Shown here: piece by piece, positions 12,628-60,631 of the stretch
Layout: the number at the start of each line of letters is the position of its first letter
Position numbering within the stretch: position 1 is the first letter of the stretch
NCBI GenBank assembly: GCA_018223185.1
Contig: JAAEYW010000001.1
Coordinates: 1-64,000 of the forward strand
Origin: Oceanospirillales bacterium
GTDB taxonomy: Bacteria; Pseudomonadota; Gammaproteobacteria; Pseudomonadales; Balneatricaceae
Length of the DNA: 64,000 nucleotides
Reading direction: 5' to 3'
Notes under the pieces: model-generated
What the model was told of the DNA's origin: nothing
Databases searched by the model: none
The model's input: only the letters and a program-made list of their open reading frames with translations
Position numbers and translations under genes: made by a program

Positions 12628-12663
12628 TTGACATTAACTGAAGCAAATTTGACATTATGTGAA
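12628..12663 (-). promoter_or_regulatory. AraC-type operator-like direct repeat, site 1
   Basis: Two half-sites, TTGACA-TTAAC-TGAA at 12628 and TTGACA-TTATG-TGAA at 12649, are repeated with an exact 21-bp period (two helical turns). They lie 89 bases upstream of the acyl-CoA ligase start. On the transcribed orientation they read TGTCAA, followed after 21 bases by a weak -10-like CAATAT (TATAAG at 24). This is the best-conserved of seven similar sites in the window. Confidence 0.75.
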
Positions 12664-12775
12664 TCTTTCAGCGGATGGTTTCCATCGTCCGGTGTGTCCT
12701 TATTGTGTTATATGACGCTTGTGTTGAATGAAGCTATCTATCCGCGATCAGAGTCGTTCTTGCTGGTGACCTCCT

Positions 12776-12811
12776 GACACCTTTTGTCAAATCATCATCG
12801 TGTAGTGTCAA
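12776..12811 (+). promoter_or_regulatory. AraC-type operator-like direct repeat, site 2
   Basis: TGTCAA at 12785 and again at 12806 (21-bp period), on the coding strand of the downstream plus-strand operon. The partner boxes four to nine bases upstream are GACA and ATCG. A -10-like TATGCT starts 21 bases after the second copy. The aldehyde dehydrogenase start is 217 bases further on. Confidence 0.68.
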
Positions 12812-13028
12812 GCTGGGCAGGGAGCGATTGCATATGCTGTTTATCGTGACAATAGCCATAAATACTGTTGTGAAGCGCTTTCTGCACCGAACATCTTAAA
12901 AGTTGGTAGAGCCCGGTGGCTGTGAATATAAAGTGTGTATGCAACTTTATTCATGTCTTTGGGTTAGTGCTGTTGGCATCAGATCGTGTATTGAACACTT
13001 ATAAAGCTAAAACAAGATTGAGGTCATC

Positions 13029-14459
13029 ATGACTAATGCAGCATTACATATCACAGAAGAGTTAAGCCGTATCGATAAGGTCTTTAACAAACAGCGTACC
13101 GCTTCACGCTCACAACCTTATCCCAGTTACCAGGAACGTCTGGATGCGCTGAACAAGATCGACAAGATTTTGATGGAGAACATGGATGCCATCTGCGCGG
13201 CGGTTAATGCTGACTTCGGCAATCGCTGCCCTCAGGAAACCAAGCTTCTGGATATCTCGCAGATGACCAGTGCCGTTGCCTATCATAAGAAACATCTGAA
13301 AAAGTGGATGAAACCCGAGAAACGTCATGTCGGGCTAAACTTCTTTGGTGCTAAAAATCAGGTGATTCCGCAGCCCAAGGGTGTGGTTGGCGTTGTCAGT
13401 CCCTGGAACTATCCGCTGGGTCTGGCATTCGGCCCGTCTATTGCTGCGCTGGCGGCCGGCAACCGCGTGATCGTCAAGATGGCGGCCAACTCACAGAACC
13501 TCTGCCGTCTGTTGGATAAACTGGTATCCGCGGAATTCAGTGACGAGCAGTTTGCGGTGATACCAGGTGTGCGTGCCAGCGAATTTACTGACCGTCCCTG
13601 GGATCATTTTGTTTTCACCGGATCGCCTAATACCGGTAAGACCGTGATGGAGACCGCTTCCAAATACCTGACACCGGTAACGCTGGAACTGGGGGGCAAG
13701 TCGCCGACGATCATTGCTAAAGACTATGATCTGCGTACGGCTGCCGAGCGTATTCTGTGGGGCAAGTGTGTTAACAGTGGCCAAACCTGTACTGCGCCTG
13801 ATTACCTGTTCCTGCCGCGGGGCAAGGCTGATGAATTCATCAGGTATGCTCAGGCCGTGGTTAGCGAGCGTTACGGCAGTGCTGATTCACGTGACTTTAC
13901 CTCGATTATCGATGACAAGTCATTTGAGCGCATCGTACATACTGTTGAGGATGCCGCTCAGCAGGGCGCCAGAACAATACGCCTGGTATCGAAGGGTGAG
14001 CCCAATGCGAAAGACCGCAAATATCCACCGACTGCGGTGCTCGATGTCACCGACAATATGTTGATCATGCGTGATGAGATTTTCGGTCCGCTGTTGCCGA
14101 TAAAGCTTTATGACACTCTCGACGAAGTGATTGAGTATATTAATGCCGGTGAGCGTCCGTTAGGACTGTATCTGTTCAGTAATGATAAAAAGACGCAGGA
14201 GAAAGTGATCTACAACACCCTGTCCGGAGGCGTTTGTCTGAACGAGACTCTTCTGCATGCAGCTCAGCACGACATGCCATTTGGCGGCGTGGGTAACAGT
14301 GGCATGGGTCATTACCACGGTAAGGAAGGTTTTCTTGAGTTCTCCAAGATTCGCCCGGTGTTCCAGCAAGCCAGAAAGTCCGGCGTCCTGATGCTGGCCC
14401 CGCCTTATGGCAAGCGCTATGAAAAGCTTATGAATCTGGTGTTTAAGTTCCGGCTCTGA
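13029..14459 (+). CDS. NAD(P)-dependent aldehyde dehydrogenase, coniferyl-aldehyde-dehydrogenase type
   Basis: A 476-residue aldehyde dehydrogenase oxidising an aldehyde to its acid. Catalytic Cys254 is in NSGQTC, general base Glu220 in LELGGK, and the nucleotide-binding VFTGSPNTGK is intact. It is nearest to the short class-3/coniferyl aldehyde dehydrogenase group, which often act on aromatic or medium-chain aldehydes; the C-terminus is hydrophobic/basic, as in membrane-associated members. GAGG lies 6 bases before the ATG. It is first in a plus-strand operon with a GldA-like dehydrogenase, a cupin and an FAH-family enzyme. A second enzyme of the same type is encoded at 22137-23579. Confidence 0.92.
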   Translation: MTNAALHITEELSRIDKVFNKQRTASRSQPYPSYQERLDALNKIDKILMENMDAICAAVNADFGNRCPQETKLLDISQMTSAVAYHKKHLKKWMKPEKRHVGLNFFGAKNQVIPQPKGVVGVVSPWNYPLGLAFGPSIAALAAGNRVIVKMAANSQNLCRLLDKLVSAEFSDEQFAVIPGVRASEFTDRPWDHFVFTGSPNTGKTVMETASKYLTPVTLELGGKSPTIIAKDYDLRTAAERILWGKCVNSGQTCTAPDYLFLPRGKADEFIRYAQAVVSERYGSADSRDFTSIIDDKSFERIVHTVEDAAQQGARTIRLVSKGEPNAKDRKYPPTAVLDVTDNMLIMRDEIFGPLLPIKLYDTLDEVIEYINAGERPLGLYLFSNDKKTQEKVIYNTLSGGVCLNETLLHAAQHDMPFGGVGNSGMGHYHGKEGFLEFSKIRPVFQQARKSGVLMLAPPYGKRYEKLMNLVFKFRL

Positions 14460-14471
14460 TCGGATTATGAC

Positions 14472-14503
14472 ACCGCAGGTCACAGGGTTTTTCTGTGGCC
14501 TGC
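14472..14503 (+). other. Intercistronic hairpin
   Basis: GCAGG-CACAG pairs with CTGTG-CCTGC around a loop containing five T residues, between the aldehyde dehydrogenase and GldA-like genes. No T-run follows the stem, so processing or stabilisation is more likely than termination. Confidence 0.35.
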
Positions 14504-14606
14504 AATACCCGGCTGCTTTCATTGTTGACGGGATCCCATTTTTAACGGCTTTAGTTGTCGAGCTCTTTTTTGATTGACGGCAGCGATAGCTGGCAGGAGA
14601 ACTCTC

Positions 14607-15764
14607 ATGTCTGAACAACAACCCCTCACTAAATACGTTTTCCGTAGCACCCCGCGCTATATCCAGGCTGCAGGTCTGATCGACCACGCTGCCGAGCCGC
14701 TGGTAGCTCTAAAAGTAAAGCATTGTGCCATTCTTTGTACCCCGCGCAGTCAGCAGGGTGAAGCTAAACGCCTGATTGCTGTACTGGAACAGGCCGGTAT
14801 CAGTACCTGTGTTTCGACCTTTGGCGGCGAGTGCTCTTTCCGTGAGATAGACGCACGGACGGCTGAACTGCGTCAGCAGGCGCCGGTTGATGCGCTGATC
14901 GCGTTGGGGGGCGGCAAAACCCTGGATGCCGGTAAATGTATCGCCGATCGCCTTGAAGTGCCGGTGGTCATCATGCCCACGCTGGCCTCTAACGACGCCC
15001 CCTGTTCTGCTCTGTCCGTTATCTACACGCCGGAAGGGGCCACCGAGACCTATGAGGTGTTTGCGCAAAATCCTGCGCTGGTGATGGTCGATACTGAAAT
15101 TGTCGCTCAGGCCCCGCCCCGTTTTCTGGTAGCCGGTATGGGGGATGCGATGTCGACCTGGTATGAGGCCCGTGCCTGTCATACTAATCCTGCCGGAATG
15201 ACTCCCTATGGTGATCGTCCGACACTGGCGGGTGTGGCACTGTCGAAGACCTGTGCCGACATTCTCTACGATTACGCTGTCGCAGCGCTTGATGATGTTC
15301 GTGCCGGGCGGGTCACGCCGGCAGTGGACCACGTAGTGGAAGCGAATACTCTGCTCAGTGGTGCTGGTTTCGAGTGTACTGGTGTCGCGGGTGCGCACGC
15401 CCTGGCGCAGGCGCTAACGTTGTTGCCGGAGGTGGATCACAATTACCTCCATGGTGAGATGGTGGCGATAGGGGTTCTGACACAGCTGATGCTGGAGGCC
15501 GACCGCGCTGAAGCGGAGCGCTGCGCACGTCTGTTTGCGACGGTTGGTTTGCCGGTTAACTTCTCTCAGTTGGGGATGTCGCTTGAGGATGAAGTCGCGG
15601 TTGGCACTGTCATTGAAGCAACTCTGGCATTTCCATTCATCGGTAACATGCCTTTTGAGGTTACCGCTGATAACTTGCGTCAGGCATTCCGTGATGTGGA
15701 GCGTTTAGGTGCTGAACTGATTAACGAGATGGGTGATCAGCCTTACCGCAGCCTGAGATCCTGA
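14607..15764 (+). CDS. Iron/zinc-dependent polyol dehydrogenase, glycerol-dehydrogenase (GldA) family
   Basis: A 385-residue group III alcohol dehydrogenase. The NAD-binding GGGKTLDAGK is at 101-110, and metal ligands corresponding to those of GldA are visible: Asp180 (GDAMSTWYEA), His264 (AGAHALAQ) and His282 (LHGEMVA). GldA enzymes oxidise glycerol or vicinal diols such as 1,2-propanediol with NAD. The ATG at 14607 is chosen because AGGAG precedes it; an in-frame TTG at 14574 lacks a site. A strong terminator follows at 15780. The substrate here may be a diol released by, or feeding, the aldehyde pathway (inference). Confidence 0.9.
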   Translation: MSEQQPLTKYVFRSTPRYIQAAGLIDHAAEPLVALKVKHCAILCTPRSQQGEAKRLIAVLEQAGISTCVSTFGGECSFREIDARTAELRQQAPVDALIALGGGKTLDAGKCIADRLEVPVVIMPTLASNDAPCSALSVIYTPEGATETYEVFAQNPALVMVDTEIVAQAPPRFLVAGMGDAMSTWYEARACHTNPAGMTPYGDRPTLAGVALSKTCADILYDYAVAALDDVRAGRVTPAVDHVVEANTLLSGAGFECTGVAGAHALAQALTLLPEVDHNYLHGEMVAIGVLTQLMLEADRAEAERCARLFATVGLPVNFSQLGMSLEDEVAVGTVIEATLAFPFIGNMPFEVTADNLRQAFRDVERLGAELINEMGDQPYRSLRS

Positions 15765-19149: not shown

Positions 19150-19220
19150 CTTTTAAGCCTTCTCGTTATTATCTTTTAAGCCGTTTCTTTTCATCATGCG
19201 AGGAAATCGATTTGCAGGTC

Positions 19221-19256
19221 TTGGCAGTTTGCGACAGTTACTGGACATTAGAGATA
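19221..19256 (-). promoter_or_regulatory. AraC-type operator-like direct repeat, site 3
   Basis: Half-sites TTGGCA-GTTTG-CGAC at 19221 and TGGACA-TTAGA-GATA at 19242 have an exact 21-bp period. They lie 71 bases upstream of the GMC oxidoreductase start. A -10-like CATGAT begins about 22 bases further towards the gene. It is more degenerate than the other members of the set. Confidence 0.55.
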
Positions 19257-19419: not shown

Positions 19420-21147
19420 TCAGAGTTTACCGTGAATCGCCGGTTCCGGGTTGGGTTCGCGGCTTGATAGCAACTCAAAATCACAGCCCTCATGGGCCTG
19501 AGTCACATTGTCGCTGAACAGTAGTCCCCAGCCACGTTTGAAGCGCGGCGCAGGTTGCTGCCAGTTCTGGCGACGCTGCTCCAGTGTCGCCTCGTCGACG
19601 CACAGGGCGATACTGCGTTCCGGAATATTGAGCTCGATTTCATCCCCGTCCTCTACCAGCGCGAGCGGGCCGCCGATCCAGGATTCAGGGCTGACATGGA
19701 GCACACAGGTGCCGAAACTGGTGCCGCTCATACGTGCATCACTGATGCGGACCATGTCTTTAACGCCCAGCTCGATCATTTTCTTCGGAATCGGGATCAT
19801 GCCGTTCTCGGCCATGCCAGGGCCGCCCAGCGGGCCGACATTGCGCAATACCAGCACCGTGGACGGGTCGACGTTCAGTTCCGGAGAGTGGATGCGTGCG
19901 GCCAGATCATCGGGACCTTCAAATACCAGTGCGCGCCCCCGGTGTCGTTGCAGGGCAGGGTCTGCGGCGCTGGGTTTGATTACACAGCCATTGGGCGCCA
20001 GATTGCCTTTCAGTACCGCCAGTGCTTCGGTGGCCACTGGATTGTCCAGCGAACGAATGATGTCACTGTTCTCAACCTTCGCCCCACGGATATTTTCACC
20101 CAGTGTCTGTCCGTTGACAGTCAGGCAGTCCAGATCCAACAATTCTGCCATACCCGTGAGCATGGCCGGCAGGCCTCCGGCATCGGCGAATTCGGGCATG
20201 ATGTACTCACCAGAGGGTTGCACATTGGCCAGCACCGGCACCTGTTTACCGATGGCATCGAAATCTTCCAGCGTGAAGCTGGCACCGGCACGGCGTGCCA
20301 GCGCGATGAGGTGAATGGTGGCGTTGGTGGAGCCACCCAGAGCGACACAGGTTTTGGCCGCATTGGTAAACGTGTTGTCGCACAGGATGTCGCTGGGTTT
20401 GAGGTCGTCCCAGACCATCTGCACGATGCGGCGTCCGGCTGCGGCGGCGAGCTGGTGTCCCCGGGAATCCATGGCAGGCACGGAGGATGCGCCGGGTAAT
20501 GAAAAGCCCATAACTTCGGCGAGGGCGGTCATGGTCGAGGCGGTACCCATGACGTTACAGGTGCCGGGAGAGCTCCAGATTTTCTGCTCAACCGTTTGCC
20601 ACTCCTGTGCTGACATCTTGCCGGCAATCAGTTCCGGAGCCCAGCGAAAGGCACCCGTACCACTTCCGAAACGTTCGCCACGAAAGGTCGCGCCCATGGT
20701 AAATCCCGCCGGACAGTAGATGGTCGGCAGATTCATACTGATGGCGCCCAGTAGTAACCCCGGTGTGGTTTTGTCACAGCCACCGAGCAGGATTGCACCA
20801 TCAATCGGATGACAGCGCAGTAATTCCTCGGTTTCCATCGCCAGGAAGTTGCGATAAAGCATGGAGGAGGGTTTAACATAGCCTTCCCCCAGAGACATGG
20901 CTGGCAGCTCTACCGGGAAGCCCCCGGCCTGCCAGACGCCCCGTTTAACCGCTTCGGCACGCTCCTTCAAATGGGCGTGGCAGGGGTTCATGTCACTCCA
21001 GGTATTGATAATGCCGATGACTGGCTTGCCCTCAAACTCTTCGCGACTGTAGCCCGCCTGCAGTGCATGGCCGGTGTGCTCGGTGGAGAGAGGGGTGCCG
21101 CCGAACCAGCGTCGACTACGAAGTTGCTCAATCTTTTTCTTGGACAT
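19420..21147 (-). CDS. IlvD/Edd-family sugar-acid dehydratase (arabonate/xylonate dehydratase type)
   Basis: A 575-residue Fe-S dehydratase. Cluster-related cysteines lie in GGCDKTTPG and PGTCNVMGTAS, with substrate/Mg loops such as GGPGMAENGM and RMSGTSFGTCVLH. The length and the RWFGG..HTGH N-terminus match the sugar-acid branch (L-arabonate/D-xylonate dehydratases), not biosynthetic IlvD. It would convert an aldonate to a 2-keto-3-deoxyaldonate. AGGAG lies seven bases before the ATG. It follows the HpaI-type aldolase gene by 89 bases, an arrangement suited to dehydration then retro-aldol cleavage. It is the last gene of the run. Confidence 0.9.
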   Translation of the reverse strand: MSKKKIEQLRSRRWFGGTPLSTEHTGHALQAGYSREEFEGKPVIGIINTWSDMNPCHAHLKERAEAVKRGVWQAGGFPVELPAMSLGEGYVKPSSMLYRNFLAMETEELLRCHPIDGAILLGGCDKTTPGLLLGAISMNLPTIYCPAGFTMGATFRGERFGSGTGAFRWAPELIAGKMSAQEWQTVEQKIWSSPGTCNVMGTASTMTALAEVMGFSLPGASSVPAMDSRGHQLAAAAGRRIVQMVWDDLKPSDILCDNTFTNAAKTCVALGGSTNATIHLIALARRAGASFTLEDFDAIGKQVPVLANVQPSGEYIMPEFADAGGLPAMLTGMAELLDLDCLTVNGQTLGENIRGAKVENSDIIRSLDNPVATEALAVLKGNLAPNGCVIKPSAADPALQRHRGRALVFEGPDDLAARIHSPELNVDPSTVLVLRNVGPLGGPGMAENGMIPIPKKMIELGVKDMVRISDARMSGTSFGTCVLHVSPESWIGGPLALVEDGDEIELNIPERSIALCVDEATLEQRRQNWQQPAPRFKRGWGLLFSDNVTQAHEGCDFELLSSREPNPEPAIHGKL

Positions 21148-21185
21148 ATTTACTCTCCTTTTGAGCTAGTGCTGTCGAACGTATG

Positions 21186-21215
21186 GGCTCGCCTGATCTG
21201 GCGAGCCGGCGAGCC
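21186..21215 (-). other. Intercistronic hairpin with duplicated arm
   Basis: GGCTCGCC is followed by GGCGAGCC twice in tandem, between the aldolase and dehydratase genes. It forms an 8-bp GC stem with no T-run, so mRNA stabilisation or processing is more likely than termination. Confidence 0.4.
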
Positions 21216-21236
21216 AAAACCATCGCCTGAGGTGGC

Positions 21237-22028
21237 TTAGTAGCCGCCTCGAGCGGTGGGCGCATCTTCCTTACTGACGCCCTTTGCTGTGCTGAGCGCC
21301 TGCATGGCACCGGCACGAATGAAACTGATATCGGTGCCAATGGAGGCAAAGTCGAAGCCGTTTTCAATTGAGTGGGCCGCCATTTCGGCGTTGTAGCCGA
21401 ACATGCCGCTGGCCAGACTGTTCTTCTCACAGGCGTTGAGGATCTTGGCAATGGCTGCGGTGAAGGCAGGATCTGTAAAACTTCCCGGTGTCAGACCCAG
21501 CCCGTAGCACAGGTCCATCGGACCGACAAAGAGTCCATCAACGCCATCCACTGCCGCGATTTCATCCAGATTGCGCAGCCCCTCTTCGGTTTCGATCATC
21601 ACCAGGCAGGCGATCTGTTCGTTGGCGGTCGCCAGATAGCCAGGACCTTCCAGCATGGCATCCCGCATCGGGCCGCATGAACGGCTGCCCAACGGAGGAT
21701 AGCGGCAGGCGGCAACAGCGCGTCGGGCGTCTTCTGCTGAATTGACCATGGGCACGATGACGCCATGGGCACCGGCGTCCAGTGCCTTGCCGATCTGGTC
21801 TGGTTGATTGGCGGCGACCCGCACCAGCGGTGTTGTCGGTACGCCGGTGATGGCTGGCAGGAGTCGGGTGAGATCACTGTAATCCATCAGACCGTGCTGC
21901 AGATCAAAGCAGATCCAGTCCACCTCCATCCGACAAAAAACCTCTGCCATATGGATATCGGGCAGGTTAGACCAGATTCCCAGACTGGATTGTTTGGCGC
22001 GCCATTTTTGTAGTGCAAGGTTTAACAT
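21237..22028 (-). CDS. HpcH/HpaI-family class II aldolase
   Basis: A 263-residue TIM-barrel aldolase with family motifs GIWSNLPD, CFDLQHG (usual form D-x-E-H), MIETEEGLRNLDEI with the metal-binding Glu, and GLFVGPMDL. Members cleave 4-hydroxy-2-oxoacids to pyruvate (or oxaloacetate) and an aldehyde using a divalent metal. The usual glutamate before the catalytic histidine is Gln here (DLQHG), a conservative change that may affect specificity. Encoded between the aldehyde dehydrogenase and the sugar-acid dehydratase, it is the natural retro-aldol step, with its aldehyde product passed to the adjacent dehydrogenase (inference). Confidence 0.9.
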   Translation of the reverse strand: MLNLALQKWRAKQSSLGIWSNLPDIHMAEVFCRMEVDWICFDLQHGLMDYSDLTRLLPAITGVPTTPLVRVAANQPDQIGKALDAGAHGVIVPMVNSAEDARRAVAACRYPPLGSRSCGPMRDAMLEGPGYLATANEQIACLVMIETEEGLRNLDEIAAVDGVDGLFVGPMDLCYGLGLTPGSFTDPAFTAAIAKILNACEKNSLASGMFGYNAEMAAHSIENGFDFASIGTDISFIRAGAMQALSTAKGVSKEDAPTARGGY

Positions 22029-22047
22029 GGGATTTTTCTCGGTTTTG

Positions 22048-22086
22048 TTGTTATTACAAAATTGTTATCACAACGCTGTTATTACA
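22048..22086 (-). repeat. Three-copy 14-bp tandem repeat in the aldolase leader
   Basis: TTGTTATTACA (22048), TTGTTATCACA (22062) and CTGTTATTACA (22076) recur at exactly 14-bp intervals, ending 20 bases from the aldolase ATG. They could be slippage repeats, a protein-binding array or a leader element. Confidence 0.7.
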
Positions 22087-22093
22087 CAGTAGC

Positions 22094-22130: not shown

Positions 22131-22136
22131 CGCTGC

Positions 22137-23579: not shown

Positions 23580-23594
23580 ATTAGCCTCTCAGTA

Positions 23595-25457: not shown

Positions 25458-25466
25458 AGTTATATC

Positions 25467-27869: not shown

Positions 27870-27870
27870 A

Positions 27871-33151: not shown

Positions 33152-33160
33152 TGTCGATTT

Positions 33161-51300: not shown

Positions 51301-51892
51301 AGTAGCGAGACATCGCCCAGCCGATCAGACCATAGTCGATCACTTCCTGAATGGTTGAGGGGTAGAGGATTGGAGAGCCATGGGCAATCATCTCAGGCTC
51401 GGAATAGTGAGCGATGGTTGATGATTTAGCGACATGATCGTCACCCGCGATCAGCAGTACCCCTCCATTATGCGAAGCACCGAAAAAGCTGCCGTGCTTG
51501 ATGGCATCGCCGGAACGGAATACGCCAGGTCCCTTGCCATACCAGATGGCAAAAACACCATCGAATTTTTTCTGTTCCTCAGTTTCAATCTGCTGAGTGC
51601 CCCAGACAGCGGTAGCCGCAAGGTCTTCATTAACGCCGGGTTGAAATACGATGTCGTGTGCATCAAGTATTAACTTATTGCGGCTCAGCTCCATATCATA
51701 GGTGCCGATTGGCGAGCCCCGATAGCCCGTAATATAACCGGCAGTATTCAGTCCTCTGGCCTGGTCACGTTGTTTCTGTAACAACGGAAGCCTGACCAAC
51801 GCCTGGTTGCCAGTCATGTAAACTGTACCGGTTTCCTTGGTGTACTTGTCGTCCAGAGAAACGTCTTTAAGTGTCATGGTCTGTGTTCTCAT
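48368..51892 (-). CDS. Fused indolepyruvate:ferredoxin oxidoreductase family protein
   Basis: An 1174-residue fusion of the alpha (TPP-binding, pyruvate-ferredoxin-oxidoreductase-like) and gamma halves of IorAB-type 2-oxoacid:ferredoxin oxidoreductase. Visible parts are an N-terminal pyrimidine-binding domain (GYRGSPIGTYD), a central TPP domain (CSGCPHNSST, GIGCHAMAGF, MGGEGHNWVG) and cysteine-rich cluster regions near 640-700 (CEACGDCSVQANC). A C-terminal gamma domain (GIGGTGVVTIGAVLGMAAH) follows. It decarboxylates an aryl- or branched 2-oxoacid to acyl-CoA. The ATG at 51877 has a better GAGA site than the one at 51892. It is last in the DUF1302-RND operon, 44 bases after the stress-protein gene. 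Confidence 0.92.
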   Translation of the reverse strand: MRTQTMTLKDVSLDDKYTKETGTVYMTGNQALVRLPLLQKQRDQARGLNTAGYITGYRGSPIGTYDMELSRNKLILDAHDIVFQPGVNEDLAATAVWGTQQIETEEQKKFDGVFAIWYGKGPGVFRSGDAIKHGSFFGASHNGGVLLIAGDDHVAKSSTIAHYSEPEMIAHGSPILYPSTIQEVIDYGLIGWAMSRYSGAWVTLKVVNETIEGTATVELDPDKSLTQDPEGLEIPAEAHFVPPTGGLGPAATAERMAYSARIPLIKAFARLNKLDRMTLEAPQRKLGIVCSGKVYQDVMRAFQLMKIDADKARSMGISVYKVAMPWPLEDQGIAAFAEGQQELLIIEEKMPVMEPQIADQLFNWPDDRRPRLIGKKDDQGQSIQKTYGGITPHEVLSLIRDRLAANNMLDDATGNACNEYLSSITGACGAIIPQLVRIPYFCSGCPHNSSTKVPEGSKAMAGIGCHAMAGFMNRETSFPTQMGGEGHNWVGLSHFVDTKHRFQNLGDGTYTHSGLLAVHGAVVQKANITYKILYNDAVAMTGGQPAEGSLTPQQISEQVTALGAKRVVVTTDNPDHYRDQPAFAKGVQIFHRRELDRVQRELREIPGVTVLIHDQTCAAEKRRRRKRGEFPDPDKRMFINDQVCEACGDCSVQANCVSLQTRKTEFGNKRVIDQSSCNKDYRCVDGFCPSFVTVLGGKLRKAETAQLGNALFDGLPDPVRPEFDNCYAVMINGIGGTGVVTIGAVLGMAAHLEDKSISIYDMTGFAQKGGAVQSHLRIGHSQSDITSLPIGPADADLIIGCDLVVTASESSMRSIRQNHTRCVVNSDPVATAALQLVRDFELPAQPLLQGLEKTLGNNLASIDATKIANALTGNSIASNMFLVGVAYQKGWIPISEEAIFKAIEINKVSVEFNQNAFRLGRVAAHDMGRITRLIEAQLNASKPDLAETPEQALQRRIAYLNDYQNQAYADSYQRFINQVRDSEQQKMPGSTALSEAVMRNYFKLMAYKDEYEVARLYTDGKFLKSLDQQFEGDYKLRFNLAPPILSRRDPLTGHLRKQEFGSWMLKAFGVLAKLKGLRGTAFDLFSYTAERKQERQMITDYRTTIGSLLDQLTAKNYDIAVSIAELPAGIRGYGHVKEAAIKQADIDKARLLNDFSQAENIIISDKSDLFYEAS

Positions 51893-51936
51893 CTTGAATT
51901 TGTTTTTAACAGACGGCGTATGTTATGAATGACGCT

Positions 51937-52767
51937 CTAGTCTTGTGTTGGCGGGATCACCAGAATATTCGTGTCAACACGCTCCAGAATTTGTTCGGCC
52001 GTGTTCCCAAGCAGTGCACCGCGAAGACCGGTGCGGGCAACGGTACCTAATACCAGCAGCTGCGCGTCAAGTGCTTTGCACTGATCCGGAATCAGCAGTT
52101 CTGCCGGGCCAGACGCAACGTGAACCTGGTTTGCTGGGATATCATAGCGGCCTGCCAGTGCCAGGCAGGCTTCGGTGTAATCCTGCAGCTGTTGTTGCGG
52201 ATTGTTGTGGTGATGAATCGGGTCCTGCATCGGTGATGGCAATGCACTGAACAGATGCAGTGGTTGCCGGAACATCCCGGCGATCCAGCTGGCGCGTTTG
52301 AGAATGCAGTTGTTCAGGTGCAGGTGTTCCTGATCGGCAGGCTGAGCTTCCACAGCGGCCAGTATTGGTGCTCCCTCTGTCTGTTGGGCAGAACGCACCA
52401 TCAGTACGGGAACGCTGGAGGTCCGCAGGAGTTTACTGTCTTTTGATGTAAACAGTGCGTCAGCGACACCTGATGGCTGAGGCGCTTTCACAATCAGGTT
52501 ATATTGCTGTTCGTGCAGACTGAGCAGCACTGCTCTGAGCAGATCTTTTTCGTCACTGGCCCGAAGCGTAATGGTCAGCCCTGACTGCCGTAGCTGTTCC
52601 AGTTGTTCCTGCAGTCTGGTCAGCTGCTCCGGTTCAGCTTTGCGGGTCTGCAGCAGTGCAGTAATACTGCCGCCCGTGTGCCGGATAATGCTCACGGCCT
52701 TGTTGAGAGCCGTCTGTTTAGTTGTGGCGGGATTGAGCACCACCAGTAGTGTCTTCAGCTCATGCAT
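51937..52767 (-). CDS. Tandem universal stress protein
   Basis: A 276-residue protein of two UspA folds (about 1-130 and 140-275). The second keeps the ATP-binding-type loop in LVLGTVARTGLRGALLGNTAE; the first is degenerate, so ATP binding is likely only in the C-terminal half. This double form is typical of UspE-like proteins. GGAAGG lies six bases before the ATG, and the gene overlaps the RND permease stop by 13 bases. Its regular co-occurrence with DUF1302/DUF1329/RND genes suggests a dedicated rather than general stress role (inference). Confidence 0.88.
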   Translation of the reverse strand: MHELKTLLVVLNPATTKQTALNKAVSIIRHTGGSITALLQTRKAEPEQLTRLQEQLEQLRQSGLTITLRASDEKDLLRAVLLSLHEQQYNLIVKAPQPSGVADALFTSKDSKLLRTSSVPVLMVRSAQQTEGAPILAAVEAQPADQEHLHLNNCILKRASWIAGMFRQPLHLFSALPSPMQDPIHHHNNPQQQLQDYTEACLALAGRYDIPANQVHVASGPAELLIPDQCKALDAQLLVLGTVARTGLRGALLGNTAEQILERVDTNILVIPPTQD

Positions 52768-55211
52768 GCGAAACCTTCCTTATCAGACTTATCCTGTTTG
52801 ACCGTTGTCTTGCCGTGCTCGGTTACGAGGGCTGGCTGTTGTTTGTTATCGACCGGACCCCGCTTTATCAGGAAGCTCGCCAGTGCAGGCAGGAATACCA
52901 GTGCACCGATCATGTTCCAGACAAACATGAAGGTCAGCAGAATACCCATATCGGCCTGGAACTTGATGGGTGACATGAACCAGGTGCCGACACCGATACC
53001 CAGGGTCAGACCGGTGAAAGCCACCGCCTTACCCGTGGTTTTAAGGGTGTTGAAGTAAGCTTCGCGCAGACTCTGTCCCTCTTTGAGGTAGGTCTCCAGT
53101 TTGCTGTAGATGTAGATGCCGTAGTCAACACCAATACCCACGCCAAGTGCGATAACCGGCAGGGTGGCCACTTTGATACCGATGCCGAGTCGGGCCATCA
53201 GCGCCTGACACAACAGCGACGTCAGTGCCAGCGGTAGCAGGATGCAGGTGACGGTGCGGATGGAGCGGAAAGTCAGCAGGCAGAGGAAGCCAACCACCGA
53301 GTACACCCAGATCAGCATTTCATACTGTGCTTTCTGGATTACGATGTTGGTAGCCGCTTCGATACCTGCATTGCCGGCTGCCAGTTTGATAGTAATATCA
53401 TCGCTGTTGAATTTGGCGGCAAAGGCTTCGGTTTCTTTGACTACGGTCGCCAGGGTTTCAGCCTTGTGGTCGTTCAGGTAAACAAATACTGGCATCAGGC
53501 TGCAATCGGCATTGAAGCTGCTGCGCGGCGCGGTAATAGAGGCCTGGTTAAGCAGGGCCTGGTTGCGGTTCAGCGCCATCCACTTGATGTTACCTTCGTT
53601 GTAGCCGGTCATCGCCTGTTTGGCGACGTTCACCATGGAGGTCGCAGACTGCACACCTGGCAGTTGCTGCAAACGCCATTGCAGCTGGTCTACGACATCG
53701 AGGGTGTGGTAATTGGAACACTGATCTTTGGCGGTCTTGACCATGATCACGAAAATGTCGGTGCTGGTAGAGTAATTCTCGTTAATAAATGCGTTATCCA
53801 GATTGTAGCGCGAATCAGGACGCAGCTCCGGTGCGCCGGCGTCCAGGTCGCCGACCTTGAGGTTCTGACTCTGATAGACGCCTGCAGCCGCAAGACCTAG
53901 TGCGATCAGGATTAGCAGGCTGGCTTGCGGACGCTGGGTGAAACTGGACAGCAGCTTCCAGATCGGGTGTTTACCCTGTTCCTCTATCAGTTGTTGCCTC
54001 TTCACGGATCGCTGGCTGACACCGGTGTAAGACATCAGTATCGGCAGGAGTATCAGGTTAGTCAGGATGATGACGGCTACGCCGATACTGGCCGCTATGG
54101 CCAGATCCTGAATGACGGCGATGTCGATAACAATCAGGGTGGCGAAGCCGACTCCGTCACTGATCAGGGCGATGATGCCCGGAATGTACAGTGAGCGAAA
54201 AGCCAGCCGTGCGGCCAGTTCTTTACCGGCACCGCTGGCACTTTCGTGCCCGATGGCGTTAATGATCTGCACACCATGGCTGACACCGATAGCAAAGACC
54301 AGAAAGGGCACCAGCATAGAGTAGGGGTCCAGGCCATAACCCAGCGTTTTCAGCAAACCCAATTGCCAGATAACCGCGATCACCGAGCACATCAGCGGCA
54401 CGATGGAGCTGCGCAGGCATCGTGAGTAGGCATATAGCAGAATCAGCGTGATGACGAGTGCCACGGCGAAGAAGATTGCAACCTGGCTGGCACCGTCGAT
54501 CAGATCACCGACGACCTTAGCAAAGCCGGTGATGTGAATCTTCACAGTGTCTGATTCGTATTTGTCACGAATCAGCTTTTCCAGTTGATTAGAGAACTCC
54601 TGATAGTCAATTGGCAAGCCGGTATCTGGATTGGTATCCATTAACGGCGCGTAAATAACGGCAGACTTGAAGTCGTTGGCCACCAGTGATCCAACACGCC
54701 CTGATTTCAGGACGTTGGTACGCAGCTTTTCCAGTTCTGCAGGGGAGCCATCGTAGGTATCGTTGATGACCGGACCGCCGGTCAAACCCTCTTCGGTGAC
54801 TTCATTCCAGCGTACCGCAGAGGCCCAGATCGATAGCAGTGCTGCCCGGTTGACGCCGGGAATATAGAACACTTCATCGTGGACCTGCTGCAGAGTCTGC
54901 ATGAAATCCTTGTCGAAAATGTCACCCTCGGTGGCTTCCACTGAGATACGGATGGCGTTGCCCAGGCCCCGCAAATCATCCTTATGTTGCATATAGTTGG
55001 CAATATAAGGATGCTGGGTCGGAATCATTTTCTCGAAGCTGGCTTCCGGCTTGATGGTACTCGCCTGATAGCCAAAAAAGATCGTCATGACCAGCATGAA
55101 CAAAATAATCAGTGGCCGGTGATGAAAGAAAATGCGTTCCAGAATAGGTTCTGTGCCTGCTGAAACGGGCTGTCGATTCTGTTTTGTGCTGTTGTTGGCT
55201 GTATGTGTCAT
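52755..55211 (-). CDS. RND-superfamily permease (MMPL/HAE3-like)
   Basis: An 818-residue inner-membrane protein with the RND duplicated layout: TM1 near 35, a large periplasmic loop (about 60-230), TM2-6 (about 240-415), TM7 near 440, a second loop, and TM8-12 (about 655-790). Motifs such as VFAIGVSHGVQIINA and LGVGIGVDYGIYIYSK carry the transmembrane polar residues of the sterol-sensing/MMPL type. Such proteins move hydrophobic molecules (lipids, hopanoids). It starts 2 bases after the YCF48-like gene and overlaps the stress-protein gene. No membrane-fusion protein or TolC-like gene is adjacent, in keeping with the HAE3 group. Confidence 0.9.
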   Translation of the reverse strand: MTHTANNSTKQNRQPVSAGTEPILERIFFHHRPLIILFMLVMTIFFGYQASTIKPEASFEKMIPTQHPYIANYMQHKDDLRGLGNAIRISVEATEGDIFDKDFMQTLQQVHDEVFYIPGVNRAALLSIWASAVRWNEVTEEGLTGGPVINDTYDGSPAELEKLRTNVLKSGRVGSLVANDFKSAVIYAPLMDTNPDTGLPIDYQEFSNQLEKLIRDKYESDTVKIHITGFAKVVGDLIDGASQVAIFFAVALVITLILLYAYSRCLRSSIVPLMCSVIAVIWQLGLLKTLGYGLDPYSMLVPFLVFAIGVSHGVQIINAIGHESASGAGKELAARLAFRSLYIPGIIALISDGVGFATLIVIDIAVIQDLAIAASIGVAVIILTNLILLPILMSYTGVSQRSVKRQQLIEEQGKHPIWKLLSSFTQRPQASLLILIALGLAAAGVYQSQNLKVGDLDAGAPELRPDSRYNLDNAFINENYSTSTDIFVIMVKTAKDQCSNYHTLDVVDQLQWRLQQLPGVQSATSMVNVAKQAMTGYNEGNIKWMALNRNQALLNQASITAPRSSFNADCSLMPVFVYLNDHKAETLATVVKETEAFAAKFNSDDITIKLAAGNAGIEAATNIVIQKAQYEMLIWVYSVVGFLCLLTFRSIRTVTCILLPLALTSLLCQALMARLGIGIKVATLPVIALGVGIGVDYGIYIYSKLETYLKEGQSLREAYFNTLKTTGKAVAFTGLTLGIGVGTWFMSPIKFQADMGILLTFMFVWNMIGALVFLPALASFLIKRGPVDNKQQPALVTEHGKTTVKQDKSDKEGFACMS

Positions 55212-55213
55212 TG

Positions 55214-56365
55214 TTATTTACCTTCGGTGACAGCTGCGGTATGGATGCCGCCAGGGCCTGCAATCAACAGGCTTTTATTCTTGCTCTCGATTACGTGGCT
55301 GAAAGGTAGTCGGGAGGGAGACTGATTGGTGTTGATAACCCGGCCATTGCTATCAATATGAAGGGATATGCCAGCGGCGCCGACCAGTACCGCCGATCCG
55401 TCGGAAAGCAGGGTTCCGCTGAACAGGCTGCTATCGATCCCGGTATCGATCTTCTGCCAGGTATCGCCAGAGTTCAGTGACTGGAAGGCGTGTCCCCTGA
55501 GTCCGTACGCTATGATACGGCCCTTATCGTCGCCGATAATGCCGAAAAATGAGCCTTCATAGGGACTGTCCAGCATCTCCCAGGTCATGCCCCAGTCATC
55601 GGAGCGATACAGGGTGCCGGCTTCGGCTGCGATAAAGAGCTGATCTCCGATCTGGGTAATGTCATTCAGATGAAAGCTGGAGGCGTTGTCGATGTGGTCA
55701 TACCAGGCTTTCCAGCTGTTGCCCCCGTCGATGGTATGCAGAATCAGGCCGAAAGCGCCGACGACAATGCCTTCATCTGCATTTTTGAACCAGACGCCCA
55801 GAAATGGCCGGCTGGGGCCTTCATCACTAAAAGCCTCGGCATCTTCCAGCTGAATGGTCAGTTCCCCGATCTCATCTTCCAGTTCTGACTGTTGTTCAGC
55901 AGTTGCGTTTTCGAGCGCCTGTTCTGATTGTGCCAGACGCTGTTGAGCCAGATCCTGCATCAGCTTGTTTGCCTGATAACCATCCATTTGCTTGGTCCAG
56001 GTATAGCCTCCGTCCTGCGTTTTGAGTATTACGCCGTCGTGGCCTGTCACCCAGCCCGTTTTGTCATCGACAAAGTCCGCTGCTGTCAGTGTTACTCGCA
56101 CCGGAGAGGGCACTTGTTGCCAGCTATTACCCTCATCTTCAGACAGTAATATATGCCCCCGCTCACCAAGTGCGATCAGGTGATTGCCAACGCGATCTAC
56201 GTCCATTAGCAGACTGTGGGTTGCCAGAGGAGACAGGCTGGCGCTCTCTTCGAGGGCATCACCTGCAACCGCTGCCGTACTTATCGATAGCGTGCTAAGC
56301 AGAGAGAAGGTGATACCTGTGAAAATTTTGAAGGAGAGAGTACGTTGGTTATTTATATGTTTCAT
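55214..56365 (-). CDS. YCF48/BNR-repeat beta-propeller protein, exported
   Basis: A 383-residue protein with a signal peptide (about 1-34, AVA-GD), then Asp-box/BNR repeats typical of YCF48-type propellers (SEDEGNSWQQ, TQDGGYTWTK, TIDGGNSWKA, RSDDWGMTWE, SLNSGDTWQK). A charged coiled-coil insertion (about 138-180) interrupts the repeats. In cyanobacteria YCF48 assists photosystem II assembly; bacterial relatives beside RND permeases have no proven role but may act as periplasmic scaffolds. Its stop is two bases from the RND permease start. Confidence 0.85.
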   Translation of the reverse strand: MKHINNQRTLSFKIFTGITFSLLSTLSISTAAVAGDALEESASLSPLATHSLLMDVDRVGNHLIALGERGHILLSEDEGNSWQQVPSPVRVTLTAADFVDDKTGWVTGHDGVILKTQDGGYTWTKQMDGYQANKLMQDLAQQRLAQSEQALENATAEQQSELEDEIGELTIQLEDAEAFSDEGPSRPFLGVWFKNADEGIVVGAFGLILHTIDGGNSWKAWYDHIDNASSFHLNDITQIGDQLFIAAEAGTLYRSDDWGMTWEMLDSPYEGSFFGIIGDDKGRIIAYGLRGHAFQSLNSGDTWQKIDTGIDSSLFSGTLLSDGSAVLVGAAGISLHIDSNGRVINTNQSPSRLPFSHVIESKNKSLLIAGPGGIHTAAVTEGK

Positions 56366-56478
56366 AACGTTTATTCTTCTTATTGATGTAAGGGAGCGGC
56401 AGCAATAGTTTATGTGTCACCAGCTCTGCGCACTTTCGGCAGTACGCTGTGGGAGCGTACTGGCGAAAAGGCGAGAGT

Positions 56479-56503
56479 GAAGCCGGTGGCACGCCACCGG
56501 CTT
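56479..56503 (-). other. Intercistronic hairpin between the DUF1329 and YCF48-like genes
   Basis: A 10-bp GC-rich stem AAGCCGGTGG / CCACCGGCTT with loop CACG, just after the DUF1329 stop. No U-tract follows, so it more likely stabilises the upstream mRNA and gives higher DUF1302/DUF1329 output than downstream genes (inference). Confidence 0.5.
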
Positions 56504-56514
56504 CGATGAGTCAA

Positions 56515-57876
56515 TTAACGACGAGACATCTGACGCACGTTCTGTGGCGTGTAGAAACTGTCATCTTTGGTTGCAGTCGTGGAGTACGGAATGACATCGT
56601 ATTCCTGCACCGCGTAATCACCAGACTGCAGATCATAGTTGGTGAGTGCGCGTGCAATGGCGTTGCCGTCTGCGTACAGGGTGATAAAGTGAGAGTGGCC
56701 GTAACGCCACAGTTCACCACGCCCATCGTACATGTCAGCCATCAGTGCAAACCAGGAGTCTTCATCCAGGTAGAAGCGACGCTTGCCATATATATGGCGA
56801 CTGTCTTCACGCAGAGTGGCTTCGACAACCCAGACACGGTGCTTTTCCCAACGCTCAAGATCGTTGTTGGTGTGGTTAGCCGGTGCAATCTCTTCCAGTT
56901 TCATACCCTTGTTGTGGGCGGTAAGGAACTTGTACGAGTTGTACGGCACCAGCATCTCTTTCTTGCCGATCAGTTGCCAGTTAAAACGCTCAGGAGAACC
57001 GTTGAACATGAATGCCTGGTCATAGGTGGCCAGACCGTTGGAACCCGGATCTGGCGTATCAAACGCGATGGTCGGTGCGCGACGAACACGACGCTGGCCG
57101 GGAATGTACTGCCATGCCTGGCGTGGCTGTTTGTTCGCGTTGACCGGGTCGCGTACCAGAGTCATCTCACCCTTGCGGCGTGCCGGCAGGGAATATTGCA
57201 GCAGAAGTTGGATGATATTGCCGTTAAACGTGTCGATAGTCCCGTCCTTGTAGTTGTACGGATATGACTCGATCAGATGGCCGGCGGTGAGGGTGCGGGA
57301 GCCGTTGGCGAAGACCGTGGTGCTTTCGTAGGTGGCATCCTTACCCTCGCCGTAGTAGCGCAGGGTGTGGTTCCAGATCGCTTCATTGCCGTTCTGCGGA
57401 ATAGGGAAGGGAGTGCCACCATAGGCGTTAACAACGCCGTTACCGTCTGGTGTCAGCTGGGCATTCAGTGCGTTGCTATGGGTGTTCCTGGCAATAAAGT
57501 CCGGCACCGGCACGGTACGATGTGTCGGATAGACATTCATCTCGAAGGTTGGCTTTTTCTCGAACAGCGCTTTCTGGCCATCTGACAATTGGTCGGCATA
57601 TTGCTTGTAGTTCTGCGCGGTGATGGTATACAGCGGTTTTTCGTCAGCGAACGGATCAATCAGGTTGCCACCTTCGGTGTAACCGGCTGGAGCCTTTGTC
57701 AGACCACCGGTCCAGGCGGGTATATCGCTGCCGTTGCCAGCTTGCTCTGCGCCTACCGGTGTCAGTGTAGTACCCAGTTTGGCGGCTTCTTCTGCGCTGA
57801 CGGCAGCCAGTGCGAAGCTGGTATGAAGCGCCATCGCCGTGATGCTGGCGGTCAGTAGAGTTTTGTTAAAATTCAT
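56515..57876 (-). CDS. DUF1329 outer-membrane-associated protein
   Basis: A 453-residue exported protein (signal peptide about 1-25, ALA-AV) of family DUF1329, with the typical start AEEAAKLGTTLTPVGAEQAGN and the C-terminal region rich in aromatic residues (ALMADMYDGRGELWRYG). DUF1329 proteins have a LolB/outer-membrane-lipoprotein-like fold and are almost always encoded beside a DUF1302 protein. A role in moving hydrophobic compounds or lipids at the outer membrane is suspected, not shown. It follows the DUF1302 gene by 47 bases. Confidence 0.9.
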   Translation of the reverse strand: MNFNKTLLTASITAMALHTSFALAAVSAEEAAKLGTTLTPVGAEQAGNGSDIPAWTGGLTKAPAGYTEGGNLIDPFADEKPLYTITAQNYKQYADQLSDGQKALFEKKPTFEMNVYPTHRTVPVPDFIARNTHSNALNAQLTPDGNGVVNAYGGTPFPIPQNGNEAIWNHTLRYYGEGKDATYESTTVFANGSRTLTAGHLIESYPYNYKDGTIDTFNGNIIQLLLQYSLPARRKGEMTLVRDPVNANKQPRQAWQYIPGQRRVRRAPTIAFDTPDPGSNGLATYDQAFMFNGSPERFNWQLIGKKEMLVPYNSYKFLTAHNKGMKLEEIAPANHTNNDLERWEKHRVWVVEATLREDSRHIYGKRRFYLDEDSWFALMADMYDGRGELWRYGHSHFITLYADGNAIARALTNYDLQSGDYAVQEYDVIPYSTTATKDDSFYTPQNVRQMSRR

Positions 57877-57923
57877 TGTTTTCTCCTCAGGCCGGAGCCT
57901 GATTTTTATTATTAGTGTCCGAC

Positions 57924-59492
57924 TCAGAAGGTGTACTTGTAGTAGGCTGCAAGGTAGTCGCGGTCAGCATTCAGGTGACCGAACGCCAGGCTGCCATCAT
58001 GCGCCAGAATTTCATCGGTATCCGTCAGGTACCAGATGTAACTGGCGCCGAACTTATGGTTGCCGAGGTAAGAAAAGTCAGTTTTTAGTGCAAATTGCTC
58101 GGTACCCTCGGCGAAACTGAACTCCATAGAGGAATACCCCTGGAAGTCGTTACGATAGGTGCCGGATACTTTCAGGTCCAGGCCGGGAGCGATGTTCAGG
58201 TAATCTGCATTCAGACCGACAACTGTGCTTGCTGCATTACGGTTTTTAGTCAGATCATCGATGCCGCCTCCCAGTGGACTATCAATATCTATGATTCGGT
58301 TGTAGCCGATTTCACCGATGAAGGTGAGGGTGTCAGCCAGTGGATTCTGCGGGAAGATATAGATGCCGGAGACCTGAGCCTGGACTGCTTTAGCAGGAGC
58401 GTATGCAAAGCCGTTACCGACGCCATAACGGACTGGAACGCCATCACGGTAAGAGACTTCACCACTGACATTCATATCGCCGAACACGGTGCCAAAACTC
58501 AGACCGTAGAGGTCAATATTGTCATAGTAGTGTTGATTGAGGTTAGACGAGTCCACGGATAGGAACTCAAGCGCCGGTGTAAAGTCGGTGTAGTTCAGGT
58601 AATACAAGCCGAACTCTGTATTATTCAGGTTTTCTGCCAGGTAGCGCAGTGCAATACCGTACTGACCTTTATCGGCTTTCTCTTCGGTGACGACTTGCAT
58701 CGTGTCATCTGTATCGCCCACTGATTGCTGACCCAGTCCATCCAGAACGTTCAGGTAAGTCCCGGGTGCGTCTATACGGGTTTTTTCCCAGTCGTACTGA
58801 TAGTAGGCGCCGACAGAAAGCGTATCACTCAACGCCAGTTCACCGTATACCTGTCCCAACGGCATGAATATATCTTTCAGTGCTACGCCGGGTGAGCTTG
58901 CCTTAGTAGCGTCCACCGGGCCCATGGCGCTGGAGATACCGCCGGGGATAAACAGACTTTCCCCCCAGTTAACCACCTGCTTACCGACTCGCAGACTGAG
59001 GAACTGATCTCCAAGATCAAAGCCCTGATACCAGAACAGATCTAACAGTTCGGCGGTGGATTTGCGGTCATCTATACCATCCTGCTGGAAGGGTTTTGCT
59101 GTCTTGAAATCATAGGCCTTGTCATACCAGCCGCGTGCCCGGGCGAAGACACCGCCATCGCCGTAGTTAACATCCAGATCTGCACTGACATTGAGCTGGT
59201 TCTGGGTCAGATCGCCTTTGTCAAAGTTGCGGTTACCATCATCCGTCAGGAAGCCCAGCCCACCAAAGGAAAGTATATTGGGATCCTGGCTCTCCTGACG
59301 CACCTGTACGTTGTAGCCCACCGTGGTGTCCAGATCGATGGTTACACCGTTTTCAAGTTCGAAGTTCATCGCCTGTGCCAGAGGTGTGCCGGCAATGACG
59401 ATCGCACTCGCCATCACTGACCGGGCAACAAGCCGGCTGACGGGATTGCGTCTGAATAGAGACGCTGGTGATCTTGTAAGGACTTTCTTCAT
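57924..59492 (-). CDS. DUF1302 outer-membrane beta-barrel protein
   Basis: A 522-residue exported protein (signal peptide about 1-41, AQA-MN) of family DUF1302. It starts with FELENGVTIDLDTTVGYNVQVR, has alternating aromatic/polar strands throughout and ends in ADRDYLAAYYKYTF, whose terminal Phe is a BAM-type outer-membrane signature. It is the probable outer-membrane channel paired with DUF1329. It is the first gene of a six-gene minus-strand operon (DUF1302, DUF1329, YCF48-like, RND, stress protein, indolepyruvate oxidoreductase), preceded by a long leader and operator-like site 7. Confidence 0.9.
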   Translation of the reverse strand: MKKVLTRSPASLFRRNPVSRLVARSVMASAIVIAGTPLAQAMNFELENGVTIDLDTTVGYNVQVRQESQDPNILSFGGLGFLTDDGNRNFDKGDLTQNQLNVSADLDVNYGDGGVFARARGWYDKAYDFKTAKPFQQDGIDDRKSTAELLDLFWYQGFDLGDQFLSLRVGKQVVNWGESLFIPGGISSAMGPVDATKASSPGVALKDIFMPLGQVYGELALSDTLSVGAYYQYDWEKTRIDAPGTYLNVLDGLGQQSVGDTDDTMQVVTEEKADKGQYGIALRYLAENLNNTEFGLYYLNYTDFTPALEFLSVDSSNLNQHYYDNIDLYGLSFGTVFGDMNVSGEVSYRDGVPVRYGVGNGFAYAPAKAVQAQVSGIYIFPQNPLADTLTFIGEIGYNRIIDIDSPLGGGIDDLTKNRNAASTVVGLNADYLNIAPGLDLKVSGTYRNDFQGYSSMEFSFAEGTEQFALKTDFSYLGNHKFGASYIWYLTDTDEILAHDGSLAFGHLNADRDYLAAYYKYTF

Positions 59493-60631
59493 CAGTTTGT
59501 CATCCTGTAGTTGTTTTTATTGATAGGGAAAGATACTGGTGGTCAGTAAGTGCAGCTCTGCTGTACGCCTTGTAACGGTCTGAGATGGGGTGGTGATACC
59601 CCCTTTAACGGTTGTGATGGCGAGGAGAAACCGGAGTTCTCCTGGCGGTTTTGAAAAGGTGCACTCATTTTATAACCAGAATTTATTATTGTTTGTCGTA
59701 CTAAGCCGGATGCCAGTCAGCTTGCCTTCGTTATAAAGCCTGCAAGTCTTCAGCTTCTTAAATGACCGTTAAGCTTCTGCTTATGCATTCAGGAAATGTT
59801 TTTGAAGACATTACTATTTAATGCCTTTGCTGACGGGCGGGCTTGACAGAAAGTGAATGTGACTTGACATATTGCGTATGAATTTTGATCTGCCGGCAAC
59901 ATTGGGAAGACTCTGCGCAGACACAAATCCGCTTTTGATGATGCGTGATCTGGGTTCAGTTAGCTCTGCGGGAGGCACAAAAGCTGAGATTTTTTGTGAT
60001 TTTCGTGTGAGGGAGTGCTTTGTTTTATCGAGTGTTTTAACTCTGAGTTGTTTGTCCGATAAAGTTATAAAATTTTTACCGTTAGGCTGTTGATCTTATA
60101 GCTTAATTATCTTTTGATACGCTCGTTGATAGTATGCCTCGACATAATGCCGGTTTAAAATACGGTGGCTGGCATGTCACGTAAAAAAGTTCTGCATTCT
60201 TGAGAGTCTGCTCATGTTTGTTAAGTTCAGTATGAAAACTTTAATTTTCATGAATAATTATTTTTATAACATGTTGTTATTAAATGATTATGTTTAATAT
60301 TTTGTTGTTTTTATTATGGTTTTTAGCACTTCTGTTCGGGGGAAGGGATATCAATGTTGTCTGTAATTTTCAGACGGCTGTTTACTTTCGGTATTGCAGA
60401 AAGCTTCAGGTGCTGCTGTTGGGTTATAAATAGACTGTCTTGAATTTTTAAGACACCTGCTTGAATGTAGAATGTCCTATTTTGTCAATTATTGTGCTTC
60501 TTTAGCCATTGCTGATTGTGTCTTTTGAATTGAAAATGGATCACACTCGAAATGGTGCAGCAGTCAACGTGCCATATACATCAGATAATCAAAGCTGAGT
60601 GATAGCCAGCATTGTTATGAGAGATAATCCT
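59493..60631. other. 1.1-kb non-coding region between divergent DUF1302 and thiolase transcripts
   Basis: The left third is an unusually long leader for DUF1302, with small hairpins (for example AGGAGAA/TTCTCCT at 59623-59643). Operator-like site 7 is at 59843-59878. The stretch 60220-60320 is very A/T-rich, and TGTCTT/AAGACA (60436-60455) forms an inverted repeat. The short open frame at 59872-60093 has no ribosome site or recognisable product. No RNA gene was recognised. Confidence 0.6.
59843..59878 (-). promoter_or_regulatory. AraC-type operator-like direct repeat, site 7
   Basis: TTGACA-GAAAG-TGAA at 59843 and TTGACA-TATTG-CGTA at 59864 have an exact 21-bp period, and CTTGACA is identical in both halves. 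A -10-like TTAAAT starts about 21 bases on, on the minus strand, which would give a leader of roughly 320 nt before DUF1302. Confidence 0.7.

Follow-up and report, generated by a model that had tools for sequence, protein, structure and literature searches.

A conserved 21-bp direct repeat and a candidate AraC1 regulon of dispersed catabolic units in an Oceanospirillales bacterium

We analyzed a 64,000-nucleotide stretch (the window; positions 1 to 64,000 of contig JAAEYW010000001.1) from an Oceanospirillales bacterium of the family Balneatricaceae, a relative of Marinobacterium, in which several promoter regions carry a 21-bp direct repeat. Very probably, judging from sequence, a ligand-controlled regulator encoded in the window, AraC1, switches on at least six window units and a DUF1330-SDR (short-chain dehydrogenase/reductase) unit just past the window end as one regulon. 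A first reading of these letters (the sequence-only reading) had proposed seven sites and an AraC-type activator bound over the –35 region. Enrichment, conservation, and co-occurrence with the AraC1 gene all argue for such an activator; the regulon is real as a conserved promoter pattern, with AraC1 as its likely activator. In the mechanism that we propose, AraC1 would act as an AraC/XylS-type activator that binds two head-to-tail half-sites (WCRYNWWNTGTCAA) directly upstream of the –35 element, overlapping it by one or two bases, and the bound protein would recruit sigma-70 polymerase to a –10 element that follows after 21–22 nt. Enzymes placed under this control would include a GMC dehydrogenase, aldehyde dehydrogenase, acyl-CoA ligase, 2-hydroxyacid dehydrogenases, dehydratase/hydratase/aldolase enzymes, and a 2-ketoacid oxidoreductase; an AmeABCD-type hydrophobe efflux cassette (DUF1302, DUF1329, YCF48-like, and MMPL proteins) and DUF3604 proteins would also belong to the regulon.

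The repeat in the window and source genome

A strict 35-bp pattern, TTGAYAN5YGWN7TTGAYAN5YGW, was run against the window, allowing up to three mismatches, and against the source genome (43 contigs, 4.6 Mb), where the pattern read backwards served as the control. Matches without mismatches were found at 12628, 12777–12811 (minus strand), 28630, and 59843, and these four were the only perfect matches in the entire genome. Two mismatches were present at 30264 and 38785. Six of the seven sites originally proposed are real. One of these had been given at 12785 in reverse orientation, a position that proved to be the first TGTCAA box of the minus-strand site at 12777–12811. The remaining site, claimed before GMC1 at 19221, is not supported: the strict half-site fits in neither half, and a 41-site matrix (described below) gave it 8.9 bits. 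It has a CATGAT hexamer at site positions 58–63 and, despite its low score, may have a weak function; tblastn mapping found no GMC1 gene in the other cluster stretches. Two further sites had been overlooked, at 31567–31602 upstream of araC1 and at C41:64311–64346, 311 bp past the window end.

With up to three mismatches, the window contained 10 matches compared to 1.2 expected from shuffled sequence, and three of the ten (16730, 43701, and 59864) look like chance or overlap. Genome-wide, at most two mismatches to the strict pattern gave 17 matches versus seven for the backwards control, so loose matches by themselves prove little. A refined pattern allowing three mismatches gave 10 genome matches, eight of them in the cluster, and two matches in its backwards control. 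Together with the confinement of perfect matches to the window, this result supports genome-wide enrichment of the motif at these units.

The exact 21-bp period was also borne out. In 439 kb of sequence (nine stretches from seven genomes), 29 TRTCAA pairs were spaced by 21 bp versus 15 pairs at all 74 other spacings between 6 and 80 bp pooled, a contrast that is inflated because these stretches were selected around AraC1 or motif matches. No other single spacing had more than two pairs. In the window alone, there were four pairs at 21 bp versus three at other spacings.

Conservation and promoter anatomy

Of the 116 family genomes, eight, the source genome among them, encode an AraC1 orthologue at a cut-off of E up to 1e-90; the other seven proteins are 62–69% identical to AraC1. 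Scoring of at most five candidates per genome identified an orthologue in one genome of another family (G162, in our numbering of genomes) among 390 sampled from the order and, of 369 genomes sampled from the class, in the source genome alone. Two carriers, G098 and G102, match records of Marinobacterium stanieri DSM 7027 and the metagenome-assembled genome Oceanospirillaceae HF-Din08, respectively, in places and sequences.

We searched the pattern in 95 genomes, 59 of them from the family. Among these 59, perfect matches occurred in exactly the three genomes with AraC1 (nine matches: 4, 1, and 4), of which two provide independent evidence, as the motif was derived from the third. Five further family genomes with AraC1 had 4–7 matches with at most one mismatch, mostly in the cluster, and the control gave none in four of these genomes and one in the fifth. 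Co-occurrence of the sites with AraC genes, anticipated by the sequence-only reading, is thus seen for AraC1.

Nine cluster stretches were mapped by tblastn with 45 window proteins, and a matrix was built from 41 core sites of seven genomes, with the tested genome left out each time (G047 and G104 were left out jointly). Each stretch contained 4–9 sites of at least 14 bits, and the reversed sequence contained none. When each gene was given the highest sense score in the 750 bp before it, accepted unit heads scored ~19–42 bits (43.9 for one ligase site farther upstream), and genes without an accepted site scored ~7 bits or less (thiolase, 7), with GMC1 at 9. The exceptions were GMC2, which scores high because it lies directly behind the gene for gluconate-2-dehydrogenase subunit 3 (G2DH3), and extra sites at the IOR gene in G033 (23 bits) and at AraC1 in G115 (22 bits). 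Conservation in orthologous promoters was clear: sites were kept before six unit heads in 7 of 8 to 9 of 9 genomes (Table 1), with the acyl-CoA ligase site lying ~1 kb upstream in G102 and G115. An SDR site was present in five genomes (G000, G047, G104, G033, and G102), for two of which, G033 and G102, the stretches were fetched because the motif matched there. The small cluster of G162 had sites of 37, 33, 27, and 22 bits.

The 48 aligned sites read tg-WCRYNWWNTGTCAA-N7-WCRYNWNNTGTCAAG. Of the 41 core sites, 25 have a TAnnnT hexamer beginning at site position 57 and six have one at position 58, leaving 21 or 22 nt in between. The earlier claim of a –10-like hexamer 20–22 nt beyond every site consequently holds statistically (phased in 31 of 41) and not at each window site. 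If a 17-bp spacer is assumed, the –35 element falls at positions 34–39 (or 35–40) and shares two bases (or one) with the last box, two being the overlap at most sites. Direct half-sites overlapping a –35 element placed in this way, followed by a phased –10 element, have the architecture of an AraC/XylS class II activator promoter. The Pm promoter offers a parallel: PMC4225500 describes two direct repeats bound by XylS, the second of which extends two bases into the –35 box, and reports that this overlap is essential for transcription initiation. XylS and AraC1 also share an AraC-type domain with two helix-turn-helix (HTH) motifs and a catabolic set as the predicted or known target. By contrast, the XylS half-site is TGCAN6GGNTA and that found here is WCRYNWWNTGTCAA, which precedes seven dispersed units.

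AraC1, AraC2, and other candidate binders

AraC1 and AraC2 have the domain layout of AraC/XylS proteins, with an N-terminal PF12625 ligand-type domain (E 6.4e-24 and 3.2e-26, respectively) and a C-terminal PF12833 double HTH domain (E 4.6e-20 and 2.4e-18). VirS from M. tuberculosis and CdpR from P. aeruginosa were the best solved structures by sequence and fold, with 22% identity in fold alignments, and a predicted model of AraC1 (mean pLDDT 77.9) matched the VirS N-terminal fragment with a TMt of 0.86. QhpR (NF049968) was the best NCBIfam match of both proteins, but scores of 206.8 and 241.8 bits fall below the cut-off of 250, and QhpR membership was rejected.

The sequence-only reading had pointed to two paralogous AraC genes in the middle of the set. 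We compared regulators of the window families across clusters (tblastn with AraC1, AraC2, and a third AraC-like query) and found AraC1 to be the sole AraC-type gene present in all nine. AraC2 was present in five, and the cluster stretches of G033, G100, G102, and G162 lack it yet keep their sites, which makes AraC1 the likely binder. Of the two paralogues, only AraC1 tracks the sites; four of the nine site-bearing clusters have no AraC2.

Several observations weigh against the proposed AraC1 regulon. No perfect match occurs in G100 and G102, two of the eight family genomes; the GlcD site is absent in G033; no site precedes the SDR gene in G100 or G115; and the genomes are related, so their sites are not independent. 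In G104, a perfect site (G104:C18:1074328; 27.5 bits) lies 64 kb away from its nearest neighbor, and sites of 25.2 and 21.1 bits occur in G007 (L020) and G040 (L037), genomes with no AraC1 orthologue at our cut-off. These stray sites, which were picked because they match the motif, may be chance occurrences or may serve paralogous regulators that share the TGTCAA helix. The site in G040 has a partial AraC-like match nearby, and that in G104 is surrounded by open reading frames that we take to resemble an ABC transporter (L112). A third AraC-like gene is present in three clusters (G047, G104, and G098) and absent from the other cluster stretches. The four aligned copies of the araC1-upstream site all lack a phased –10 element, and it is therefore not an ordinary activating site. 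Finally, the HTH2 stretch LGYSELSAFSRAFKRW is identical in all 14 AraC1 and AraC2 sequences (G047 and G104 being near duplicates), and AraC2, sharing this helix, could bind the same boxes.

We consider it unlikely that AraC2, or AraC1 and AraC2 together as competitors or heterodimers, is the real binder. The shared HTH2 helix, the presence of AraC2 in five of nine clusters, and its probable place as the last gene of a target unit would fit this arrangement, but clusters without AraC2 keep their sites, no site of at least 6 bits lies in the 6 and 12 kb around two AraC2-like genes elsewhere in G033, and the HTH1 helix differs between the proteins (N.RTLQREL in 9/9 AraC1; HTRS.QRQL in 5/5 AraC2). 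Binding by some other regulator, with its gene outside the cluster or from another family, would account for the isolated perfect site in G104. This explanation appears very improbable, as AraC1 alone among the regulators of the window is found in all nine clusters and perfect sites among the 59 family genomes are confined to those with AraC1. TTGACA is also the –35 consensus, and the hexamers might be sigma-70 –35 boxes of the opposite strand that are paired by coincidence. We ruled out this explanation, to which we give almost no weight, on column information: columns –19 to –2 of the aligned sites, where an opposite-strand –10 element would lie, hold no more than 0.19 bits each. The phasing of TAnnnT on the TGTCAA side, the exactness of the 21-bp period, and the conservation of the sites across nine genomes also speak against it. 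AraC1 thus remains our preferred activator.

Two features suggest that AraC1 and AraC2 are themselves under regulon control. With its start 30 bp past the glyoxalase gene, AraC2 probably closes the DUF3604 unit, a position that suggests positive feedback, by which the regulon would act on its own regulators. The oppositely oriented site upstream of araC1 could mediate autoregulation of this gene and is probably an autoregulatory operator or a relic; in G162, sites corresponding to it precede ALDH1, which is divergent from araC1 there.

Other regulatory genes lie near these sites. The third AraC-type gene (L060:6917–7924; G047:C1:1054917–1055924) adjoins the SDR site in both G047 and G104, and a 54% relative lies near the thiolase gene in G098. 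The regulator just upstream of the 64311 site (L018:6561–7493; C41:64561–65493) was considered as a third AraC protein and rejected, as it is LysR-type and found only in the stretch of G000. Between araC1 and araC2 in G047 and G104 are two genes that resemble a DUF1852/MetE pair (L061/L062; G047:C1:1087577–1089615).

Target units and related systems

The operons originally grouped by shared sites included GMC1. The set now comprises six window units without GMC1, and the DUF1330-SDR unit just past the window also belongs (Table 1).

Table 1. Repeat sites, AraC-type regulators, and target units in the window. Scores are in bits, from matrices built without the tested genome.
Feature	Coordinates	Strand	Remarks
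Site, acyl-CoA ligase-GntP-2-hydroxyacid dehydrogenase-FMN_dh unit	12627..12662	-	perfect strict match; 32.9; 8/8 gene-bearing genomes
Site, aldehyde dehydrogenase (ALDH1)-iron-type alcohol dehydrogenase (FeADH) unit	12777..12812	+	perfect match; 30.9; 9/9 genomes
Candidate site before GMC1	19220..19255	-	8.9 with the 41-site matrix, under every accepted site; unsupported
Site, gluconate dehydrogenase subunit 3/GMC2/fumarylacetoacetate (FAA) hydrolase/IlvD unit	28629..28664	-	perfect match; 32.6; 9/9 genomes
Site, GlcD-like gene	30263..30298	-	two mismatches; 29.2; 7/8 genomes at 19–38, not G033
Site upstream of araC1, boxes facing away from araC1	31567..31602	+	31.9; counterparts in G047, G104, G098, and G115; weak (17.9) in G100
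Site, DUF3604a-DUF3604b-PPIase-HupE-glyoxalase-AraC2 unit	38784..38819	-	two mismatches; 30.6; 9/9 genomes
Site, DUF1302-DUF1329-YCF48-MMPL-Usp-IOR unit	59842..59877	-	perfect match; 36.9; 8/8 genomes; ~350 nt before start codon
AraC1, proposed activator	30383..31405	-	PF12625 + PF12833
AraC2, AraC1 paralogue, 45% identical	31616..32665	-	PF12625 + PF12833
FMN_dh (LldD-like), 2-hydroxyacid dehydrogenase, GntP-like permease, AMP-dependent acyl ligase	7214..12538	-	Pfam/NCBIfam
Aldehyde dehydrogenase, iron-type alcohol dehydrogenase	13029..15764	+	family matches
Gluconate-2-dehydrogenase subunit 3, GMC2, HpaH-like FAA hydrolase, IlvD2, ALDH2, HpcH/HpaI aldolase, IlvD1	19420..28440	-	family matches
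GlcD-like FAD oxidase gene	28786..30159	-	family matches
DUF3604a, DUF3604b, PPIase, HupE/UreJ, glyoxalase	32696..38709	-	family matches
DUF1302, DUF1329, YCF48-like, MMPL (AmeABCD-type order), Usp, IOR-like 2-ketoacid oxidoreductase	48368..59492	-	family matches; AmeABCD domains from PMC6394551
SDR of DUF1330-SDR unit	62923..63702	-	site of unit outside window, at C41:64311

In the pathway suggested by the predicted enzymes, an alcohol is oxidized to an acid and activated with CoA; further steps would be the oxidation of a 2-hydroxyacid, a hydratase-aldolase reaction, and the oxidative decarboxylation of a 2-keto acid. Polyethylene glycol and sugar-acid substrates were weighed, and the HpaH/HpaI-like, LldD-like, IlvD, and IOR-like matches do not decide. 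The DUF1302 unit provides a hint. AmeABCD of Castellaniella defragrans is an inducible efflux system for apolar monoterpenes, according to PMC6394551, and comparison of domain descriptions given there shows that both systems have DUF1302, DUF1329, photosystem-II-assembly-like, and RND/HAE3 proteins in the same order, corresponding here to Pfam matches to DUF1302, DUF1329, PSII_BNR, and MMPL. This likeness hints at a hydrophobic substrate, which is a guess. Unlike AmeABCD, the window cassette shares its promoter site with other units; the main text of PMC6394551 does not contain the word AraC.

Of the 116 family genomes, 10 encode DUF3604, and all eight AraC1 carriers are among them. In eight DUF3604 stretches outside AraC1 clusters, no site precedes DUF3604, and the sole match of at least 6 bits (7.6) lies before another gene. 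A PDB sequence search with DUF3604b gave no match at E 0.01, and the DUF3604 fold model (mean pLDDT 41) was too poor to use.

Other known systems resemble parts of this one. P. aeruginosa ArgR-type direct repeats have TGTC-type AraC half-sites, and the sphingomonad peg operon with PegR has a similar content of GMC, aldehyde dehydrogenase, acyl-CoA ligase, and AraC genes. In the titles and abstract starts that our literature searches listed, we found no description of the regulon or its substrate; the type of switch is known, and the regulon and pathway were not found described. The regulon ties the little-known DUF3604, DUF1302, DUF1329, and DUF1330 genes to one coordinated catabolic program, with a likely regulator named and an exact site matrix supplied. 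With Marinobacterium stanieri DSM 7027, for example, a culturable host whose orthologous cluster lies on NZ_FTMN01000006.1, substrates could be tested on a single promoter reporter to reveal the inducer. We propose, tentatively, that the cluster encodes one undescribed pathway of ~57 kb, patchy in relatives of Marinobacterium, in which a single hydrophobic substrate, perhaps a terpenoid, is served by both the DUF3604 proteins and the AmeABCD-type cassette. A duplicated AraC pair would run this pathway, with AraC2 keeping the TGTCAA-reading helix, changing the other, and tuning or competing with AraC1.

The DUF1302 leader (59493–59841) is long, with ~350 nt between the site and start codon in the window and 343–399 nt in eight genomes. 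Seven of the eight have a frame of 41–53 codons starting 157–184 nt past the site, six with ATG, and the encoded sequences are weakly alike. No Rfam family matched in the window at the gathering score.

Between the DUF3604 and IOR units (38864–48248) lies a BatD-VWA-DUF4381-DUF58-MoxR block with a radical SAM/SPASM protein and a sulfatase; a similar MoxR/VWA/sulfatase block occupies the same place in G033 and a different place in the G098 cluster. Ahead of the regulon, positions 1262–6793 encode a hybrid histidine kinase with an Hpt domain, a response-regulator protein, and a hemerythrin-PAS-HD protein.

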